Source: Chthonomonadaceae bacterium
GTDB lineage: Bacteria; Armatimonadota; Chthonomonadetes; Chthonomonadales; Chthonomonadaceae
Length of the DNA: 63,521 nucleotides
Direction: 5' to 3'
Assembly: GCA_025054835.1 (NCBI GenBank)
Contig: JANWZQ010000148.1
Coordinates: forward strand, 1-63,521
Part shown: one piece after another, positions 3,846 through 13,479 of the stretch
Position numbering within the stretch: position 1 is the first letter of the stretch
Layout: every line of letters starts with the position of its first letter
Translations under genes and position numbers: made by a program
Notes under the pieces: generated by a model
Told to the model about the DNA's origin: nothing
What the model saw: only the letters and a program-made list of their open reading frames with translations
Databases searched by the model: none

Positions 3846-5846
3846 ATGCGCCTGATAGCCTGTGCGGTTCTTTCGGCCCTGATCGGCCTGCTCCACGTGA
3901 CGTCCGGTTTCAGAACGCCGGTGTGCGCGGACGGCAAACGACCGCCGTCCTCCGGGGCCCGGGCGACAAAGCCGCCTGCGAAGAGCATGCTGGACGCTGT
4001 CCTGCGCGAGGCGATCCGCACCGCACCGGACGCTTCCGACTGGCCCAACCACGACTACGCGCGTCTGCTGGATCTCGGGGAAGTTCGCGTCGCCAGTGAC
4101 GGCACCGTGCGTGCCGTTTATCGGGAAACTTACAAGCTGTTCAACGAACGTGCACGTCATCTGGCCGAGGTCCACCTGCCGTTCAACTCCAGTTACCAGT
4201 CCGTGCGCGTACTCTCGGCACGCACCATCCGCAGAGACGGCACTGTGGTGCCGGTGCGACCGGCCGACATCCGGCTCTCGGCTGCCGTCAGCGACTTTCC
4301 CCTCTACGAGGATGCCCTCTACACCAGCTTCTCCATGCCTGCCATTGAGGACGGGTGCGTGATCGACTACACCTATGAGATGATCACCCGACCGTTGCTC
4401 ATTCCCGGGCACTTCTGGACCTACTGGGGCTTCTCGGGCCCGGAACCGGTGCAGTTGAGCCGGTACACCCTGCATGTGCCGGCCGACAGAGCGTTGCGCT
4501 TCAAAGTCTACAACGATCCGGGGCTCAAGCCCGTTGTCCGTAACGCGCCCGATGGCCGGACCCGCACCTACATCTGGGAGCGCCGGGGACTGGAACCGAT
4601 CAAACTGGAGCCCGCGATGCCGCCTCTGGCCGACGTACGCGTCTACATGGAGGTCTCTTCGCTGGGCAGCTGGGAAGAGATCGGCAGGTGGTTCTGGCAA
4701 CTGGCTCGATCGCAGATCAAGCCCACCGACCGGATCCGCGCCACCGTTGCGCGCCTGATCGAGGGCAGGAGCTCCGAGCGCGAGAAGGCCGCCGCTCTCT
4801 ACGATTTTGTGGCCAACCGCGTCCGCTACGTCGGCCTGGAATTTGGCCTCTCCGCCTATCGCCCGCATGCCGCGCCAGAAGTGCACGACAGGCTCTACGG
4901 CGACTGCAAGGACAAGACCACTCTGCTGGTGACCATGCTTGGCCTGGTCGGCATCGAGGCACGTCCGGCACTGGTCCGCACTGGCGACCCGCGCCCGGTA
5001 GAACCTGCGTTGCCCACGCTCAACGTGTTTAACCACTGCATCGCAGTCGCGCAAATCGAGGGGAAGGAGGTCTGGCTCGACCCCACTGCGGAGACCTGCC
5101 CGCTTGGCGATATCCCGGAGAGTATTCGGGGCGCGCAGGCGCTGGTCGTTGGAGACGAGGGGCCCCGGTTCCGTACCATACCGGTCTATGCTCCCGACGA
5201 AAACCGGGTGGAATGGGACCTGCAGGTGCGCCTCCAGCCCGATGGGGGGGCACAGACCGAGTTCTCGATGTCGCTCCGGGGCGCTGCCGCACAGGCCCTG
5301 CGGGCAACCGCGCGCTCCCTGCAACCGGACAAACGCAAGGAATGGATGCGCGCGCTGGCCACGCAGTTTGCGCCCGGCAGTCAGTTGAAGCGCTTCCAGC
5401 TGCCCGATGGCACAGACAAGACCGACCCCTTCACCCTGCAGCTGACCATCGACTCCCCGGCCTACGCCCGGCCGGTAGGCAGTCTCCTGTTGGTGCCCAT
5501 TCGCCTCACTCCCGGGCAGATGGAACGGCGCAACCCCTTTGCCACGCAGGACACCCGCGTCTGGCCCATCGTGGAAACCGACAATTCGCGCACGCGTATT
5601 CGCTCCACATTCATTCTCCCGGAGGGGTACCGGGTGGAGGAGGTCCCGGCGGATCTGAGGCTCTCCTGCGACGTGCAGCAGTTCGAACGCACGGTAGCTC
5701 GATCAGAGGACGGTAGAAGCGTGACCGTGATCGTGACCATCACGGAACGGGCAGGCAGCGTGCCACCCACCGACGTCGAGAAAGTGCGCGCCTACTACGA
5801 CAGTGTGCTGAAAGCGGCCGAGGACCAGATCGTTCTCAAACGCTGA
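3846..5846 (+). CDS. Exported DUF3857 / transglutaminase-like protein
   Basis: A 666-residue protein with an N-terminal signal sequence (MRLIACAVLSALIGLLHVTS). The ATG at 3846 follows AAAGGTAGG, whereas the long upstream in-frame extension overlaps the neighbouring gene's promoter region and has no protein character. Residues about 70-240 match the DUF3857 beta-rich domain. A transglutaminase-like core follows, with an apparent catalytic triad: C354 in YGDCKDKT, H397 in FNHCIAV and D412 in WLDPTAE. The C-terminal third is a DUF3858-like beta domain. Such proteins are periplasmic or surface-attached in Bacteroidetes, Planctomycetes and Armatimonadota; their substrate is unknown. It ends 27 bp from a convergent gene, leaving no room for a separate terminator. 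Confidence 0.9.
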   Translation: MRLIACAVLSALIGLLHVTSGFRTPVCADGKRPPSSGARATKPPAKSMLDAVLREAIRTAPDASDWPNHDYARLLDLGEVRVASDGTVRAVYRETYKLFNERARHLAEVHLPFNSSYQSVRVLSARTIRRDGTVVPVRPADIRLSAAVSDFPLYEDALYTSFSMPAIEDGCVIDYTYEMITRPLLIPGHFWTYWGFSGPEPVQLSRYTLHVPADRALRFKVYNDPGLKPVVRNAPDGRTRTYIWERRGLEPIKLEPAMPPLADVRVYMEVSSLGSWEEIGRWFWQLARSQIKPTDRIRATVARLIEGRSSEREKAAALYDFVANRVRYVGLEFGLSAYRPHAAPEVHDRLYGDCKDKTTLLVTMLGLVGIEARPALVRTGDPRPVEPALPTLNVFNHCIAVAQIEGKEVWLDPTAETCPLGDIPESIRGAQALVVGDEGPRFRTIPVYAPDENRVEWDLQVRLQPDGGAQTEFSMSLRGAAAQALRATARSLQPDKRKEWMRALATQFAPGSQLKRFQLPDGTDKTDPFTLQLTIDSPAYARPVGSLLLVPIRLTPGQMERRNPFATQDTRVWPIVETDNSRTRIRSTFILPEGYRVEEVPADLRLSCDVQQFERTVARSEDGRSVTVIVTITERAGSVPPTDVEKVRAYYDSVLKAAEDQIVLKR

Positions 5847-5873
5847 TCCCTGCGTGTAGGCTCCGGGGTGTGG

Positions 5874-7040
5874 TCATTCTTCTGCAAGGTGCCACGCAAA
5901 GCGCGTGCCGTCATCGGTGGCCGTTTCTTCCACGCCCATGGGACGCAGGTTGGGCAGATTCTTCCCCCAGCAACGTCGGGCCTCGCTCAGGTAGTACAGG
6001 TAGTTGCGCAACGGCACGTCCGGGGGGACACGGTGATCGGGCGTGGGAATGTAGCCGCCTTCTTCCACCAGCGGGGCCAGCCGCTCCACTTCCTGGGTGA
6101 TCTCCTCCCGGGTGCTGGCCAGGATCTGCTTGCTGAAGCCGCCGATCATGCGCAGATCCGTGCCGTACTCCTTCCGGTACCGGAGCGGATCGGCACCCCA
6201 TGCGCCGATCTCGAGCGGGAACATGGTGTTCACTCCTGCTTCCAGCCACAACGGTAGCAACTGCGTAATGTCCCCATCACAGTCCACGATCACGATATCC
6301 GTGCCATGCTGGCGGAGGAGCTCTGTGATCCGCCGGTACCGGGGGACCAGCACCTGCGCGAAGACCTTCGGCGACAGCAGGGGGCCGGCGCGGTAACACA
6401 TATCTTCCCACAGGAGCGCGTACTCGAATCGAATCCCTGCCTCCAGTGCTGGAGTGATGGCCTGGATCACACAGTCGGCGATGGTCTCCACCATCTCCTC
6501 GAACAGCGCGCGATCGTCGTAGATCAGCATGGAGACGCCTTCCAGACCCATCCAGTTCCGGATCCACCCGTAGAGGGAGCCCACCTGGATGCCCAGCGGA
6601 TAGTCCCGACCGGGGTCCAGATATTCTGTCAACAGCTGGGGCCAGTTTCGCGGGTAGCGGTGCGGGGCGCAACCATTCAACCGCCAGCGGAACTCGACTT
6701 CCCAACTGGCCCGGCCACGCAACGTGTGGCGGAGATGACGGGGTATCGAGCTGGCAAACTTGCTGCGTTCCTTGACCACCCCGTCGCTGTCCCGCACAAT
6801 CTCGGTCTCCCCGTGATCTTCCATCACGATGGCCCGGAAGGGCGGGTGCAGGCCCACGTTAATCGGCGCGAGGATCCACTGCGGATCCATTCCGAAGAAC
6901 GCGTCGGTGTCAACGTCGTGGGGCAGACCCTGTTCCTCCCAGAGGAACAGGGTCTCTTCCCAGAAACCGAAGTCCATAATCGGACTGCGGTCGCGGGGCA
7001 GGTAGTGCATGGTCGCGTGAAACCGTTCTCGAGCGTTCAT
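5874..7040 (-). CDS. Uroporphyrinogen decarboxylase (URO-D) family protein
   Basis: A 388-residue soluble protein beginning MNARERFHATMHYLPRDRSP, the usual opening of the URO-D superfamily. The start at 7040 is preceded by AGAGG. The C-terminal half carries the family pattern around IVDCDGDITQLLPLWLEAG, followed by MFPLEIGAWGADP and a TPDHRVPPDVP segment near the end. This lineage of URO-D-like proteins is usually not the haem enzyme HemE; relatives include corrinoid methyltransferases of the MtaA/CmuA type, and many are uncharacterised. No heme or corrinoid genes lie nearby, so a methyltransferase-like role is only a family-based guess. It is transcribed divergently from the thiolase across about 260 bp of regulatory DNA. 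Confidence 0.88.
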   Translation of the reverse strand: MNARERFHATMHYLPRDRSPIMDFGFWEETLFLWEEQGLPHDVDTDAFFGMDPQWILAPINVGLHPPFRAIVMEDHGETEIVRDSDGVVKERSKFASSIPRHLRHTLRGRASWEVEFRWRLNGCAPHRYPRNWPQLLTEYLDPGRDYPLGIQVGSLYGWIRNWMGLEGVSMLIYDDRALFEEMVETIADCVIQAITPALEAGIRFEYALLWEDMCYRAGPLLSPKVFAQVLVPRYRRITELLRQHGTDIVIVDCDGDITQLLPLWLEAGVNTMFPLEIGAWGADPLRYRKEYGTDLRMIGGFSKQILASTREEITQEVERLAPLVEEGGYIPTPDHRVPPDVPLRNYLYYLSEARRCWGKNLPNLRPMGVEETATDDGTRFAWHLAEE

Positions 7041-7215
7041 GCCGTGTGCCTCTCTGGCAGAAAGGGTTGCGCCGGCAGAGGTAGCGGCGCATGTGCGGGC
7101 CCTGCTCGCATTCAAGCCAGAGCACGCTTGTTTCCACTTGCAATGAGATTGGCGCAAAAACGGATCGTTGCGTATCCGCCAAACGAAGGATTTTTTTCCT
7201 CCAGGGCCAATTCAC

Positions 7216-7263
7216 TAGAGTGAGTGTTCCCCGTGTGCGCCACGTAGATAGAGTGAGATTTCC
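7216..7263 (+). promoter_or_regulatory. Pair of 15-bp direct repeats upstream of thiolase
   Basis: Two copies of TAGAGTGAGNNTTCC lie at 7216-7230 and 7249-7263. Thirteen of 15 positions agree and the spacing is exactly 33 bp, close to three helical turns. They sit in the divergent region just upstream of the thiolase start at 7302, so they could be tandem binding sites for a regulator. No regulator gene is adjacent, and no convincing sigma-70 promoter could be aligned here. Confidence 0.4.
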
Positions 7264-7301
7264 GGGGTCCACCGTCCCGGGGAAAGCGAGGGGTACGCAC
7301 A

Positions 7302-8477
7302 ATGCGAGAGGTGGTGCTGGTAGGAGCAACCCGAACTGCCATCGGCAAATCGCCACGCGGCACGCTGCGCCACACCCGTCCGGACGATCTGGGGGCGTTT
7401 GTGCTCTGTGCGGTTATCGAACGCGTTCCGGGGCTCGCCCCGGAGGAAGTCGAGGATGTGATCCTGGGGTGTGCTACACCAGAAGCCGAACAGGGGTTCA
7501 ACGTGGCGCGCGTGGCGGCCCTGCGCGCCGGATTGCCGGACAGCGTTCCGGGCATGACGCTCAATCGCTTCTGTGCCTCCGGACTGGAGGCCATCGCAGT
7601 TGCTGCCGCCAGGATCGCAACTGGCCAGGCCGACATCGTGATTGCCGGGGGCACCGAGTCGATGACCATGGTTCCGTTCATGGGGCCGGGCACACGCCCC
7701 AATCCCGTGTTGATGGAGCGTCGGCCGGATACCTACCTGAGCATGGGACTCTGCGTGGAGGGGCTGGCCCGGGAGTACGGCATCACCCGGCAGGAGGCGG
7801 ACGCATTCGCCCTGCAGTCGCACCAGAAAGCGGTAGCAGCACAGGACTCGGGCCGGTTCTCGGGGGAGATTGCTCCGATCACCGTCAAGGTGCAGGAAGG
7901 AGAAGGCGACGCAGTAACCGTGCGAGAGGTGCTTTTTGCCCGGGATGAGGGGCCGCGACGGGATACATCGCTGGACGCGCTGGCGCAGCTCCAGCCCGCC
8001 TTCTGCGAGGGAGGGATCATCACCGCAGGCAACGCCTCCCAGCGCAGCGATGGAGCTGCCGCCGTGGTGCTGACCACCCGGGAGATCGCCCGGGCACGTG
8101 GCTGGGAGCCGCTGGCACGCTTCGTGGACTATGCAGTGACCGCGGTGGCCCCGGAACAGTTCGGCATCGCTCCGGCCTACGCCATTCCGAAGGTGCTGCA
8201 TCGCGCCAGCGTCCCCCTGCAGGATGTCGACCTGATCGAGTTCAACGAGGCGTTCGCCGCGCAGGTACTGGCGACGCACCGGATCTACCCGCTGCCAATG
8301 GAGCGCGTCAATGTCAACGGTGGCGCGGTGGCCCTCGGGCACCCGCTGGGCGCAACCGGAGCCCGACAGACAGTCACACTGGTCCACGAGGCACGGCGGC
8401 GCGGGGCGCGTTACGGACTGGTCACCATGTGTGCCGCCCTGGGCATGGGGGCCGCCGGACTGTTCGCATTCGACTGA
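7302..8477 (+). CDS. Acetyl-CoA C-acyltransferase (thiolase)
   Basis: A 391-residue thiolase of the usual length. It catalyses reversible Claisen condensation or thiolytic cleavage of acyl-CoA. The catalytic residues are all visible: nucleophile C91 in [11 protein letters not shown]347 in [15 protein letters not shown] and C377 in [11 protein letters not shown]. The ATG at 7302 follows a GAGGGG ribosome site. The paralogue type (degradative FadA-like or biosynthetic PhaA-like) cannot be told from motifs alone; no hydroxyacyl-CoA dehydrogenase lies next to it. The next gene starts 37 bp downstream on the same strand, so the two are probably one transcript ended by the terminator at 9490. Confidence 0.95.
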
Positions 8478-9468: not shown

Positions 9469-9489
9469 CACGCAGATAGTCGGAATTTC

Positions 9490-9527
9490 ATGCCGGTCTT
9501 TCCCTCGTGAAATGACCGGCATTTTTG
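9490..9527 (+). terminator. Rho-independent terminator after the thiolase/TIM-barrel pair
   Basis: The arms ATGCCGGTC (9490-9498) and GACCGGCAT (9514-9522) pair perfectly, the loop adds a TTTC/GAAA inner pairing, and TTTTTG follows. It lies 22 bp after the TIM-barrel stop codon and separates that transcript from the Hsp70-like gene. Confidence 0.85.
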
Positions 9528-9646
9528 CGCCCGGCAGGACGAAAGGGCTTCTGTGACTAAGTACAGATATGTTGTTCCGCTGTACCCTGACTGGCAGTAC
9601 CGGAGAGGTGCTGCCCCGAACCTGAGAATGCGTGGGAGAGCCTGCG

Positions 9647-12088
9647 ATGGAGGAGAACGCACTGGATCTGGCGCCGTTGATGCGGGTGCAGGACCGGGAG
9701 AAGCCCTATCCCGTGCCCCCTTCCCTGCCGATGCGCGTGCTGGGGATTGACCTGGGCACTACCAACTCGACAGTCGCTGAGGTCCGCTGGGACCCGGGGC
9801 AGATGTATCCCTCGCCGGCCCGTTGCATCGATGTGGTACAACCAACCGATGCCGGAGAGTACATCCACATTCTGGTGCCCTCCGTGGTGGCTCTGTACAG
9901 AGGGCAGGTCTGGGTAGGTGAGGGCGCCAAGCGCCTCCGGGCCGATGCGAGGCGGGCTCGTAACAAAGACATCTTCTACGAGTGCAAGAACGACATGGGG
10001 CTCCAGCGTACCTACCATCGCGCCCCGGAAGGATTCCGACACGCCCGTGAGATCAGCGGGAAAATACTCGACTTTCTCAGGTCTGCAGCAGAGCAGGAAT
10101 GCGACCTCCCGCCTGAGCGTATCGTCGTCACGGTTCCTGCGTCCTTCCAGCTGGCGCAACGCCGCGACACACAGCTCGCTGCGCAAATGGCCGGGCTGGA
10201 CCTGCAGCCGGGGGATCTGCTGGATGAGCCCGTCGCTGCGTTTCTGGACTATCTTGTCACTCACTGGAGCGCGTTGCAGAAGGACCTGGAACGTCCGCAG
10301 AACCTGCTGGTGTTCGATTTCGGCGGGGGCACGTGCGATGTGGCCATTTTTCGCCTCACCCCGCAGAACAGAGGTGGGAACATTCATATCGCTTTTCTGG
10401 CCGTGTCGCGCTACCACCGGCTGGGTGGTGGCGACATCGATGCGGCCATCGTGCACGAGGTCCTGATCCCGCAACTGGCGGAGCAGCAGGGGCTGGACGT
10501 AATGCAGTTCGAGTTCCATCAGCGCAAACGGCAACTGGAGCCGGCCCTGCTGAGCGTGGCGCAGTCGCTGAAAGAGAAGCTCTGCATCGAGATCGATCGT
10601 CTGCAGAAATTCGACCGGTATCAGCGTGCAGACAAATCCGAGATCCGGCAGGTCCTCCCGGGAACATGGCCCTGCCCGTGCGATGGGCACGACAGAATGT
10701 CGCTGCAGTCGCCGGCCCTCTCCGCAGCGGAATTCGAGGAACTGCTCGAACCCTTCCTGGACACCGACCTGCTCTACGCGCGCAACACCGAGTACCACCT
10801 GACCTGCTCCATCTTCGCGCCGATACAGGACGCGCTGGACCGGGCACAACTGACAGCCGGGGATATCAATCTCTGCCTGATGGTGGGTGGGAGCAGCTTG
10901 ATCCCACAGGTGCAGGAGGCTGTGCAGCACTTTTTCCCGTCGGCGCGTGTGCTGACGTACGCAGACCGCGAAGCGACGCAGGTGGCGGTAGCCCGTGGGG
11001 CCGCCTACCATGCATTGACCCTGGCGCTTTTCGGTAGAGGGTGGATCCAGCCCGTCGCGCACGACACGATCAGTCTGCGCACGGAGAGCGGCCTGTTCGA
11101 GCTGGTGCCACAGGGCGCTACGCTGCCCTACCCCGGCGCGGAAGCGTTTATCGAGCGTACAGGGTTGCTGGTTCCGCAGACTGCGACGCAGGGAGAGGTT
11201 CCACTGCAGGTGGAGGTGGTCGCCGGCACCGATGCGCAGGAGCGCAAGGTATTTGCTGCCACCTGGAATATCCCGGGGCCGGTCCGGGAAGGTGACCCGT
11301 TGTTGCTCAGAGTGCAGATGGACGCCAATCAGTGCTTGCAGCTGCAGATGGCACTCCAGAACCGCCCGGACTCTTCCTTCGACCTGGTCATCGAGAACCC
11401 GTTGATCCAGGTGGTCAATCCGCATGCCGCGCAGTTGCGTATCGAAGAGAACGAAGAAGCGTTGCGCACCGGAGAAATTCCCGAGACACAGATACCTCAT
11501 GTGCTCCGACAGCTGGCGGACGACTACGCGGAGATCGGGCAGATCGACAGGTCCATCGATTACCTGAAGCAGATCCTGCGGCGCCTGCGCCGTCCGGATG
11601 CGGACCTGCTGAACCTCCTGGGCATTCGCTATGGGGAGAGGGAGGACTGGGAACGCGAGGAAAAGATGTATCGTGAAGCGGTACGTGTTTCGCCTACTTT
11701 TACTGGACCAATGTTCAACCTCGCCCTATCACAGTTCCGACGCAATCAGTTCGAAGAGGCGGAAGCAACTATCCGGCAGGCGCTTGCGATCGAGAAAGAC
11801 CCACCCTACATGGTCTTATTGGCGCAGATCCTGCGAGCACAGGGGAAAACGGACCAGGTGCAACCGACTCTGGAAGAAGCGTTACAGCTGTTTGGATCGA
11901 TAGAATTACTCACTGACTGGGAACTGGGCTGGTTCCTGACCGCAGCCAGTCAGCTCAACAGGCAGGATCTTGCCAGTGCTGCCCGGAAGGAGCGACGGCG
12001 GCGAGCACATGAGGACGCGGATCTGGCAGAGCATGCTGAGGCGGGCCTCCTGCCAAAGCTCGCTCTTTCACATGAGGCAGGATCATGA
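9647..12088 (+). CDS. Hsp70/DnaK-like ATPase fused to C-terminal TPR repeats
   Basis: An 813-residue protein. An N-terminal extension of about 30 residues precedes an Hsp70-type actin-fold ATPase: phosphate-1 loop GIDLGTTNS (33-41), phosphate-2 FDFGGGTCDVA (from about 222) and adenosine motif MVGGSSLIPQVQEA (from about 410). A reduced beta-rich substrate-binding-like region follows (about 460-600). The C-terminus (about 615-790) is helical with TPR periodicity (for example ADLLNLLGIRYGEREDWERE and PTFTGPMFNLALSQFRRNQF). Canonical DnaK has neither the extension nor TPRs, so this is a divergent chaperone-like protein. The ATG at 9647 has GGGAG upstream; an in-frame GTG lies at 9632. Its stop overlaps the start of the helicase gene by four bases, indicating translational coupling. 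Confidence 0.92.
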   Translation: MEENALDLAPLMRVQDREKPYPVPPSLPMRVLGIDLGTTNSTVAEVRWDPGQMYPSPARCIDVVQPTDAGEYIHILVPSVVALYRGQVWVGEGAKRLRADARRARNKDIFYECKNDMGLQRTYHRAPEGFRHAREISGKILDFLRSAAEQECDLPPERIVVTVPASFQLAQRRDTQLAAQMAGLDLQPGDLLDEPVAAFLDYLVTHWSALQKDLERPQNLLVFDFGGGTCDVAIFRLTPQNRGGNIHIAFLAVSRYHRLGGGDIDAAIVHEVLIPQLAEQQGLDVMQFEFHQRKRQLEPALLSVAQSLKEKLCIEIDRLQKFDRYQRADKSEIRQVLPGTWPCPCDGHDRMSLQSPALSAAEFEELLEPFLDTDLLYARNTEYHLTCSIFAPIQDALDRAQLTAGDINLCLMVGGSSLIPQVQEAVQHFFPSARVLTYADREATQVAVARGAAYHALTLALFGRGWIQPVAHDTISLRTESGLFELVPQGATLPYPGAEAFIERTGLLVPQTATQGEVPLQVEVVAGTDAQERKVFAATWNIPGPVREGDPLLLRVQMDANQCLQLQMALQNRPDSSFDLVIENPLIQVVNPHAAQLRIEENEEALRTGEIPETQIPHVLRQLADDYAEIGQIDRSIDYLKQILRRLRRPDADLLNLLGIRYGEREDWEREEKMYREAVRVSPTFTGPMFNLALSQFRRNQFEEAEATIRQALAIEKDPPYMVLLAQILRAQGKTDQVQPTLEEALQLFGSIELLTDWELGWFLTAASQLNRQDLASAARKERRRRAHEDADLAEHAEAGLLPKLALSHEAGS

Positions 12089-13323
12089 GTACTTGGCTGG
12101 TTCCTCGTAGCGAATTGACCCCGGACCAGCTCCGGGCCGTCGAACTGCCCCATAAAGAGCATCAGGTCATCTATGGCGCACCGGGTTCTGGCAAAACGAT
12201 GGTTCTGCTTCATCGGGCCCATGAGTTGCGACAGCGTATGGGCTCGTCATCGGACAAGTTCCGCATCGTGGTGTTTACCAGGGTACTCAAATCCTACATC
12301 CGCTCTGGCCTTGCACTGCTGGATTTGCCTGAGAGTTCCGTGACCACGTTTGACGACTGGTGCAGGAAGTTCTACGAGGCCCGCATCAGCAGGTACTTAC
12401 CATGGAACTATGAGGAGCGAAAGCCTGACTTCGAGGCAGTCCGACGGGCCGTAGCAGACTGGATTACAGAGCGCTCAACACCACCCCTCTTCGATTTTGT
12501 AATGGTAGACGAGGGCCAGGACCTGGACGGAATCTGCTTCGAGATACTCCGCCGCGTTGCACGGCACGTGACCGTTTGCATGGACCACAGGCAGCAGATC
12601 TATGAAGGCGGTTCTACCGAGAGTGAGGTGCTCCAGATCCTCGGGTTACGCCGCCGGCAGGTCACACTTCTGGATGCCTATCGTTGTTCGCCGTATGTAG
12701 CACGCCTGGCTGCACAACTGCTCAGGGTTCCAGAAGAGCGAGAACAGTACCTGAATCAGGTACGCACGGTGCAGAAGGAGCGTGAGACGCCTCTACTGTA
12801 CATTGCGAGCGATTTCGAGGATGAGAAGCAGCGTCTCATCGACGTCTTGCGCCAAAGACTCCTGGTCGATCAGCGGATTGCCGTGTTGTTTCCTCTGAAG
12901 AGGCAGGTGCATGGCTTCGCAACAGGTCTCAGGGAAGCAGGTATAGAAGTAGAAGATCAGGAAAACCTGCATTTTGCCTCCAGACGCCCCAAGTTGATCA
13001 CTATTCATAGCGCCAAAGGGCTCACCTTCGACACCGTTCTGCTGCCCCGGATCGTTCCGGCTTCTTTCCCCGAGGGAAAGTCAGGGGAAAAATTGCGCAA
13101 CTTGCTGTTCGTTGCCATCACACGTGCAGAACGCTGGGTCTATCTCAGCACTGTTAATAGCAAGGTACCTCCAATTGTCAGAGAGCTGGAGAAGCTTGCT
13201 GCAACACGACAGATCACAGTGCAGCGCTTCGAGGAAGCACCAGACATTGACGAACTGTCATCCCATGAATATCTGGATGAGTGGCACACGGTAGAAGACG
13301 AGGACGAACTGGACTTTCTATGA
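12085..13323 (+). CDS. Compact UvrD/Rep-type superfamily 1 helicase-like protein
   Basis: A 412-residue protein, much shorter than UvrD or Rep (about 670-720). It keeps the core SF1A motifs: Walker A GAPGSGKT (31-38), Walker B VDEGQD (141-146), DHRQQIYEGG (167-176), YRCSP (199-203), HSAKGLTFD (308-316) and VAITRAER (343-350). There is little room for full 1B and 2B domains, so it may be a minimal translocase or an ATP-driven sensor. No nuclease motif is visible. It is coupled by an ATGA overlap to the Hsp70-TPR gene. Base composition looks lower in GC than the flanks (33 of 60 bases in 12481-12540) and rare TTA leucine codons occur at 12397 and 12646, which suggests horizontal acquisition. 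Confidence 0.9.
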   Translation: MSTWLVPRSELTPDQLRAVELPHKEHQVIYGAPGSGKTMVLLHRAHELRQRMGSSSDKFRIVVFTRVLKSYIRSGLALLDLPESSVTTFDDWCRKFYEARISRYLPWNYEERKPDFEAVRRAVADWITERSTPPLFDFVMVDEGQDLDGICFEILRRVARHVTVCMDHRQQIYEGGSTESEVLQILGLRRRQVTLLDAYRCSPYVARLAAQLLRVPEEREQYLNQVRTVQKERETPLLYIASDFEDEKQRLIDVLRQRLLVDQRIAVLFPLKRQVHGFATGLREAGIEVEDQENLHFASRRPKLITIHSAKGLTFDTVLLPRIVPASFPEGKSGEKLRNLLFVAITRAERWVYLSTVNSKVPPIVRELEKLAATRQITVQRFEEAPDIDELSSHEYLDEWHTVEDEDELDFL

Positions 13324-13399
13324 TATCTGCCGGGCAGGCCCTGATGCGGATACAACACGAATGTCCGGGCGTACCAGAGCAGGTTGTTCTGCCATTACT

Positions 13400-13433
13400 C
13401 AGGTGGGGTGGTTCTCTTAAACCGTCCCACCTG
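13400..13433. terminator. Terminator hairpin between convergent helicase and TPR genes
   Basis: CAGGTGGG (13400-13407) pairs with CCCACCTG (13426-13433) and the inner bases extend the stem with GGTT/AACC. A T-rich stretch follows on the plus strand. It can serve the helicase transcript and, from the other side, the leftward TPR transcript. Confidence 0.75.
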
Positions 13434-13479
13434 CGTTCTTCTGTTGCCTCTTCCTGATGCCGCACGGCCATAACCACTG

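Follow-up and report, generated by a model that had tools for sequence, protein, structure and literature searches.

The question raised by this locus is whether an Hsp70-like gene and the small helicase gene that follows it, found in the genome of a Chthonomonadaceae bacterium, constitute a single system, and what such a system might do. The window analysed is a 63,521 nt stretch of DNA (positions 1-63,521 on the forward strand of contig JANWZQ010000148.1, assembly GCA_025054835.1), in which the initial annotation proposed a candidate undescribed two-gene system, acquired as a self-contained cassette and possibly involved in phage defence. The two genes, referred to here as Hsp70-TPR and the compact helicase, form one conserved, mobile gene pair. 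The overall interpretation is supported, phage defence being the part of it that we infer from gene context. Searches of the open-access literature turned up no account of the pair, in keeping with its labelling as undescribed, although one may exist unseen.

The two open reading frames (ORFs) and the four-base overlap between them are present exactly as first annotated (Table 1). Translational coupling through this ATGA overlap is probable; an identical overlap is found at four other loci (L024, L027, L051 and L052), and the distance between the genes ranges from -4 to +3 bp across all close relatives. The terminators proposed on either side of the pair both fold well, the RNA folding energy being -18.2 kcal/mol (z = -4.5) for positions 9484-9530 and -23.4 kcal/mol (z = -6.1) for positions 13393-13445. 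An alternative in-frame GTG start of Hsp70-TPR lies at position 9632; the ATG at 9647 has GGGAG upstream.

Table 1. Positions of the features of the Hsp70-TPR and helicase locus within the window
Feature	Position	Strand	Evidence
Left cassette border: intrinsic terminator of the upstream gene	9490..9527	+	RNA fold, then TTTTT
Hsp70-TPR gene, 813 amino acids	9647..12088	+	Pfam HSP70 and TPR
ATGA stop/start overlap of Hsp70-TPR and helicase, 4 bp	12085..12088	+	Sequence
Compact SF1 UvrD-type helicase gene, 412 amino acids	12085..13323	+	Pfam UvrD_C and UvrD-helicase
Free acidic-hydrophobic helicase C-terminus (VEDEDELDFL), a candidate docking peptide	13291..13320	+	Tail pattern
Right cassette border: intrinsic terminator	13400..13433	+	14-bp stem

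Profile searches of 291 genomes of the phylum detected Hsp70-TPR in 12 and the compact helicase in eight, and all eight helicases are encoded directly downstream of an Hsp70-TPR (hypergeometric p about 4 × 10-13 for the co-occurrence, ignoring relatedness). The dependence between the genes is one-way: Hsp70-TPR occurs without the helicase, whereas no helicase without Hsp70-TPR was found in these genomes. The solitary copies are those of four genomes of genus g4 (L023, L025, L026 and L028), which implies that the chaperone is of some use by itself.

The adjacency of the two genes, which the initial annotation had put forward in advance as the point open to refutation, is conserved not only in the phylum itself but also in two metagenome-assembled genomes (MAGs) of other phyla, on a prophage-like contig and, in more distant form, on plasmids. 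One of the MAGs is from the Nitrospirota (L031, Nitrospiraceae), with proteins 50 and 49% identical to those of the window; the other is labelled 'Proteobacteria' (L032). On the prophage-like contig (L054), the pair directly follows genes for an S24/XRE-type repressor and a thermonuclease-like protein, both named by eye, and the contig breaks off after 30-odd codons of the helicase, the start of which is MTWLIPLEELSIEQIRAVE. The distant pairs are found on a Persicobacter plasmid (L036, helicase profile match E = 7.5 × 10-28) and on an Antarctobacter plasmid (L048), the latter between IS6 and IS256 elements (two transposases). A third co-directional gene, without a Pfam or PADLOC match, comes after each of these plasmid pairs (L036:11569-13359 and L048:9507-10877), and the L048 Hsp70 (5446-8325), which the compact helicase follows, has an N-terminal Swt1-like HEPN match (E = 10-4) that falls below the curated cut-off. 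The helicase profile detected nothing beyond weak SF1 matches in a viral collection, while a broader Hsp70 scan gave mostly DnaK-level matches, L054 being the sole true member; a phage collection yielded only DnaK/HscA-level matches.

Horizontal transfer of the pair is likely. The Hsp70 of the window is 50% identical to the Nitrospirota copy and 37-41% identical to copies from its own family, and in the tree it clusters with the copy on the prophage-like contig and with those of other phyla and of a distant family, not with those of its own. A single clade for the family's Hsp70 copies is rejected by the approximately unbiased (AU) test (p = 2.5 × 10-11), as is one with the copies of the order (p = 1.2 × 10-4), and it is this separation that makes transfer likely. 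With the patchy distribution of the pair, the rejection of vertical descent bears out the description of the cassette as acquired. The helicase tree is compatible with that of Hsp70, and poorly resolved. Comparisons within two genera, resting on draft assemblies, reveal variation over short distances: in genus g16, the pair is present in two genomes and other genes occupy the position in a third, the flanks being colinear and 85-91% identical, while genus g2 includes one intact pair, one open Hsp70 followed by a helicase with a stop, and one remnant consisting of only the first 40-odd Hsp70 codons. The g16 genes at the site of the pair were named by eye as a metallo-beta-lactamase-type protein and two-component genes. 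For the window, an equivalent empty site was not found, the upstream neighbour being detected in one of the 16 relatives searched, and there placed apart from the downstream one.

The composition of the genes had also been proposed as a sign of foreign origin. The count of 33 G+C in the 60 bases at 12481-12540 is exact, and the helicase gene as a whole is indeed low in G+C (0.549, z = -3.8, against 35 long window ORFs, many of which are probably spurious), but the Hsp70 gene is not (0.615, z = -1.0), and the shift is thus mainly confined to the helicase gene. TTA codons carry no information, accounting for 2 of 49 leucine codons in the helicase gene, 3 of 101 in the Hsp70 gene and 18 of 1749 in the long window ORFs. 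Following these counts, TTA use and the G+C content of the Hsp70 gene were both rejected as indicators of transfer.

The Hsp70-TPR protein comprises a nucleotide-binding domain (about residues 30-465), a beta substrate-binding domain (about 472-583) and a TPR solenoid (about 594-792), with Pfam matches to HSP70 (4 × 10-32) and to TPRs at about 606-750, in line with the TPR tail noted at the outset. The substrate-binding region had been described as reduced, which holds for the alpha lid, whose place is taken in the AlphaFold model by a TPR solenoid of eleven helices (594-792), but not for the beta domain, which aligns to that of DnaK and is all-beta in prediction. The mean pLDDT of this model is 65.8, and about 90 over most of the TPR helices. 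The closest solved structures are those of DnaK; identity to a DnaK of the same phylum is 27%, and the protein scores 117 bits on the curated DnaK profile, which has a cut-off of 648 bits. Neither dnaJ nor grpE is present next to the gene in the window. Six ATPase residues are invariant in the alignment of relatives (D35, K95, E194, D224, T229 and D231), their DnaK counterparts being D8, K70, E171, D194, T199 and D201. Judged from such residues, the ATPase sites of both Hsp70-TPR and the helicase are shown to be intact.

The compact helicase matches the Pfam families UvrD_C (1.8 × 10-14) and UvrD-helicase (5.9 × 10-12), and contains a Q motif, a Walker A motif (residues 32-38), DEGQD (142-146), KGLTF (311-315) and TRA (346-348). 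In 13 relatives, including those paired with a kinase (discussed below), there is no variation in the Q motif, Walker A, DExQD, the D/Q of motif III, the KG of motif V or the R of motif VI. Its residues 103-131 and 221-306 correspond to about 110 (1B) and about 278 (2B) residues, respectively, of solved UvrD/PcrA-type helicases. By this alignment the protein is a core-only SF1 enzyme, reduced to the RecA-like core with the 1B and 2B insertions nearly absent, just as its small size and SF1 motifs had first indicated. The top profile matches are to PcrA/UvrD, and HelD is also matched. An AlphaFold model of the helicase, built from three sequences, had a mean pLDDT of 53.7 and was rejected as a basis for comparing folds.

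One feature distinguishing the Hsp70-paired helicases is their C-terminus, where acidic residues precede a hydrophobic free end. A simple pattern for this arrangement is matched by 10 of 11 such helicases and by none of 219 background ORFs, a count that excludes two matching family members with other start codons. The 11 tails read EDELDFL, NKLLDLL, NDLIDLL, DDEVSLF, EEEISLF, DVDIAAF, EEDISVL, IDFVDVL, DDIDIL, SIDDLF and DDELFF; those of the kinase-paired helicases, IFGKF or IFGKE, are not acidic. Analogous peptides are the C-terminal peptide of SSB and EEVD, which TPR domains recognise. Given the pattern and these analogues, it is put forward as a hypothesis that the helicase tail docks on the TPR solenoid. 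The C-termini of the solitary g4 chaperones (DYFIW, EEDFSF, TDDFSF and QDEFSF) bear a faint likeness to the helicase tails. The possibility that the tail had moved onto Hsp70 in this genus (EEDFSF, TDDFSF, DYFIW) was considered and dropped, as the same pattern test was not passed.

Clustering of the pair with defence genes across genomes had been suggested as a check, and is observed at several loci though not in the window: the pair lies with defence genes or mobile elements at L031, L052 and L053, on the plasmids L036 and L048, and at L054. On an uncontrolled count, methyltransferase and restriction-helicase clusters hold three of the nine chromosomal loci. At L031, an Eco57I-type methylase, the pair and an HKD-SNF2 helicase are followed by an integrase; at L052, the order is methylase, HKD-SNF2 helicase and pair, all co-directional, with 42 bp between the HKD-SNF2 and Hsp70 genes; and at L053, a ResIII helicase and a type III methyltransferase (1016 bits) precede the pair, 43 bp apart. 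Upstream of the pair, L031:2-4286 encodes a VRR-NUC plus HIRAN protein and another in which HATPase and type I specificity regions are combined. L053:1-2370 encodes a UvrA-like protein, which contains domains for UvrA interaction and DNA binding and whose gene is oriented divergently from the pair and the type III restriction genes.

From these observations, a horizontally acquired, defence-type module acting against phage or other mobile DNA has, in our estimation, about an even chance of being the correct explanation. Hsp70-TPR would be the sensor and keeper, and the helicase the effector, held by its C-terminal tail in the TPR groove or by the beta domain. On capturing an invader-associated polypeptide through its beta domain, in a step coupled to ATP turnover, Hsp70-TPR would release or load the helicase, which may then target invader DNA, or its replication or transcription complexes, stripping proteins or unwinding strands such that propagation is blocked. 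At the three loci with a methyltransferase and restriction-helicase/nuclease cluster, the pair might supply that machinery with substrate; in the window, it would act alone or with host nucleases. Were this so, an ATP-competent Hsp70 would sit at the centre of a bacterial immune system as its sensor or regulator, not as a degenerate add-on, and chaperones would have a direct immune role.

Several observations weigh against such a defence module. Ordinary metabolic or structural genes surround the pair at six of the nine chromosomal loci (the window, L024, L027, L029, L051 and L032), the pair itself contains no nuclease or other classical killing domain, the Hsp70 gene is of ordinary G+C content, and genus g4 keeps Hsp70-TPR without the helicase in housekeeping neighbourhoods. 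Furthermore, the prophage evidence consists of a single short contig plus part of a second, both from one sample, and the docking step is drawn from a sequence pattern that was set after the tails had been inspected. A module for DNA repair or stress, in which the chaperone remodels protein-DNA complexes at replication forks or RNA polymerase, which are then cleared or unwound by the helicase in the manner of HelD, PcrA or UvrD, the module spreading as a beneficial accessory, would fit the housekeeping neighbours as well as the profile matches to those helicases and the SSB-like tail pattern. The g4 copies, adjoining LysRS and GroEL genes (both named by eye) or a cyclase-type gene, and with an endonuclease III-type gene near, could be accommodated likewise. 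This explanation is nevertheless considered improbable. Repair genes do not usually show a patchy distribution in 3-4% of genomes, transfer, copies on prophages and plasmids, or neighbours of restriction type. Least probable is that Hsp70-TPR is a specialised accessory chaperone without an immune role and the helicase merely its client. Its occurrence alone in four genomes and its intact ATPase site and beta domain are consistent with this, but the mobility of the pair, its clustering with defence genes and the existence of kinase-paired helicases would go unexplained.

A different emphasis is possible if the free helicase is harmful and Hsp70-TPR is its dedicated chaperone or antitoxin, the pair then forming an addiction or abortive-infection switch; this may be the same system as the defence module, seen as a toxin-antitoxin pair. 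The one-way dependence in all eight helicase-bearing genomes and the four with Hsp70-TPR alone would be expected of such an arrangement, and the chaperone-first order with its overlap seems to recall toxin-antitoxin layouts. As the g4 clade branches from within helicase-bearing lineages, it has probably lost the helicase; in G014, the helicase is stopped at codon 57 while Hsp70 is open, but in a draft assembly this stop may be an error. Set against a toxin-antitoxin pair are the cost of an 813-residue ATPase as an antitoxin, the fact that SF1 helicases are not usual toxins, and the solitary g4 copies, which are intact and have not decayed. On balance it is considered about as improbable as the repair or stress module.

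Comparison with known systems indicates that the pair belongs to none of CoCoNuT, Gabija or ARMADA. In CoCoNuTs, Hsp70-like proteins and SF1 helicases share predicted defence operons, and Type III combines CnuD, an Hsp70-HEAT protein with nucleotide-binding and substrate-binding domains and helical repeats, with the SF1 helicase CnuH (PMC11090510). However, the core of that system is a McrB-like NxD GTPase with a McrC/DUF2357 homologue, neither of which was present in the flanking ORFs scanned (window, L031, L052 and L053); CnuD carries HEAT repeats rather than TPRs and has degenerate Walker-A-like motifs (PMC11090510), whereas the DnaK-equivalent residues of Hsp70-TPR are invariant; and CnuH is UPF1-like, in contrast to the UvrD-like core found here, which best matches PcrA/UvrD. 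An operon on a Priestia plasmid (L035:6530-11481), encoding an unnamed protein, an Hsp70 and a HEAT-repeat protein with DprA and HNH genes nearby, was set aside as CoCoNuT-like and is possibly a CoCoNuT relative. In ARMADA, E. coli gains protection from a UvrD-family helicase in combination with a SNF2 helicase and a methyltransferase (PMC12458937), and the Type II arrangement, with the UvrD-family ArmD beside a SNF2/RapA helicase and a methyltransferase, resembles L031 and L052. ARMADA has no Hsp70, though, and requires a YprA helicase (PMC12458937), which was not detected in the L031 and L052 stretches seen, despite their SNF2-HKD helicase and Eco57I-type methylase. The combination expected of ARMADA or DISARM-like systems, a YprA-like helicase with a SNF2 helicase and a PglX-like methyltransferase, was likewise absent among the window neighbours scanned. 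As in Gabija, a UvrD-type helicase is the smaller gene of a two-gene system, and the helicase is homologous to GajB (models E to 3 × 10-21, solved GajB E about 10-8), although NERD+UvrD matches better; it is about 80 residues shorter than solved GajB, and its partner is Hsp70-TPR instead of the ATPase-TOPRIM nuclease GajA. Individually, Hsp70-TPR shares the nucleotide-binding domain, ATPase residues and beta substrate domain of DnaK/HscA, but lacks the alpha lid, falls below the DnaK score and is not universal (12/291 genomes); the helicase has the SF1A motifs of UvrD/Rep/PcrA with domains 1B and 2B nearly absent.

No PADLOC model matches Hsp70-TPR; the model nearest to the helicase is the candidate C3a187 (NERD+UvrD), followed by GajB. 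As C3a187 spans residues 24-359, a compact helicase core appears to be shared, the difference being that a NERD nuclease is there fused in one protein. Similar two-gene order is seen on a Cupriavidus plasmid (L049:5582-8146) and a Rhizobium plasmid (L050:5589-8149), where a kinase related to PD-T4-6 takes the upstream position of Hsp70-TPR and precedes a helicase of the same size and motifs, overlapping or abutting it; the Rhizobium pair adjoins Hachiman HamA and a DEAD/DEAH helicase. A third protein, seemingly shared, follows the kinase and helicase at both. These few kinds of neighbour suggest that a single type of effector-like helicase combines with interchangeable partners. Both the tail of the helicase and the one-way dependence are previously unreported and, should the defence reading hold, yield precise predictions. 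Extending this further, it is possible, if rather speculative, that there is a class of immune modules in which a compact UvrD core helicase has interchangeable keepers (Hsp70-TPR, a protein kinase or a fused NERD nuclease), with an active Hsp70 as invader sensor and the helicase tail docking to the TPR solenoid in a mirror of the eukaryotic EEVD-TPR link. If so, NERD-, kinase- and Hsp70-linked compact helicases would represent one family of modules.

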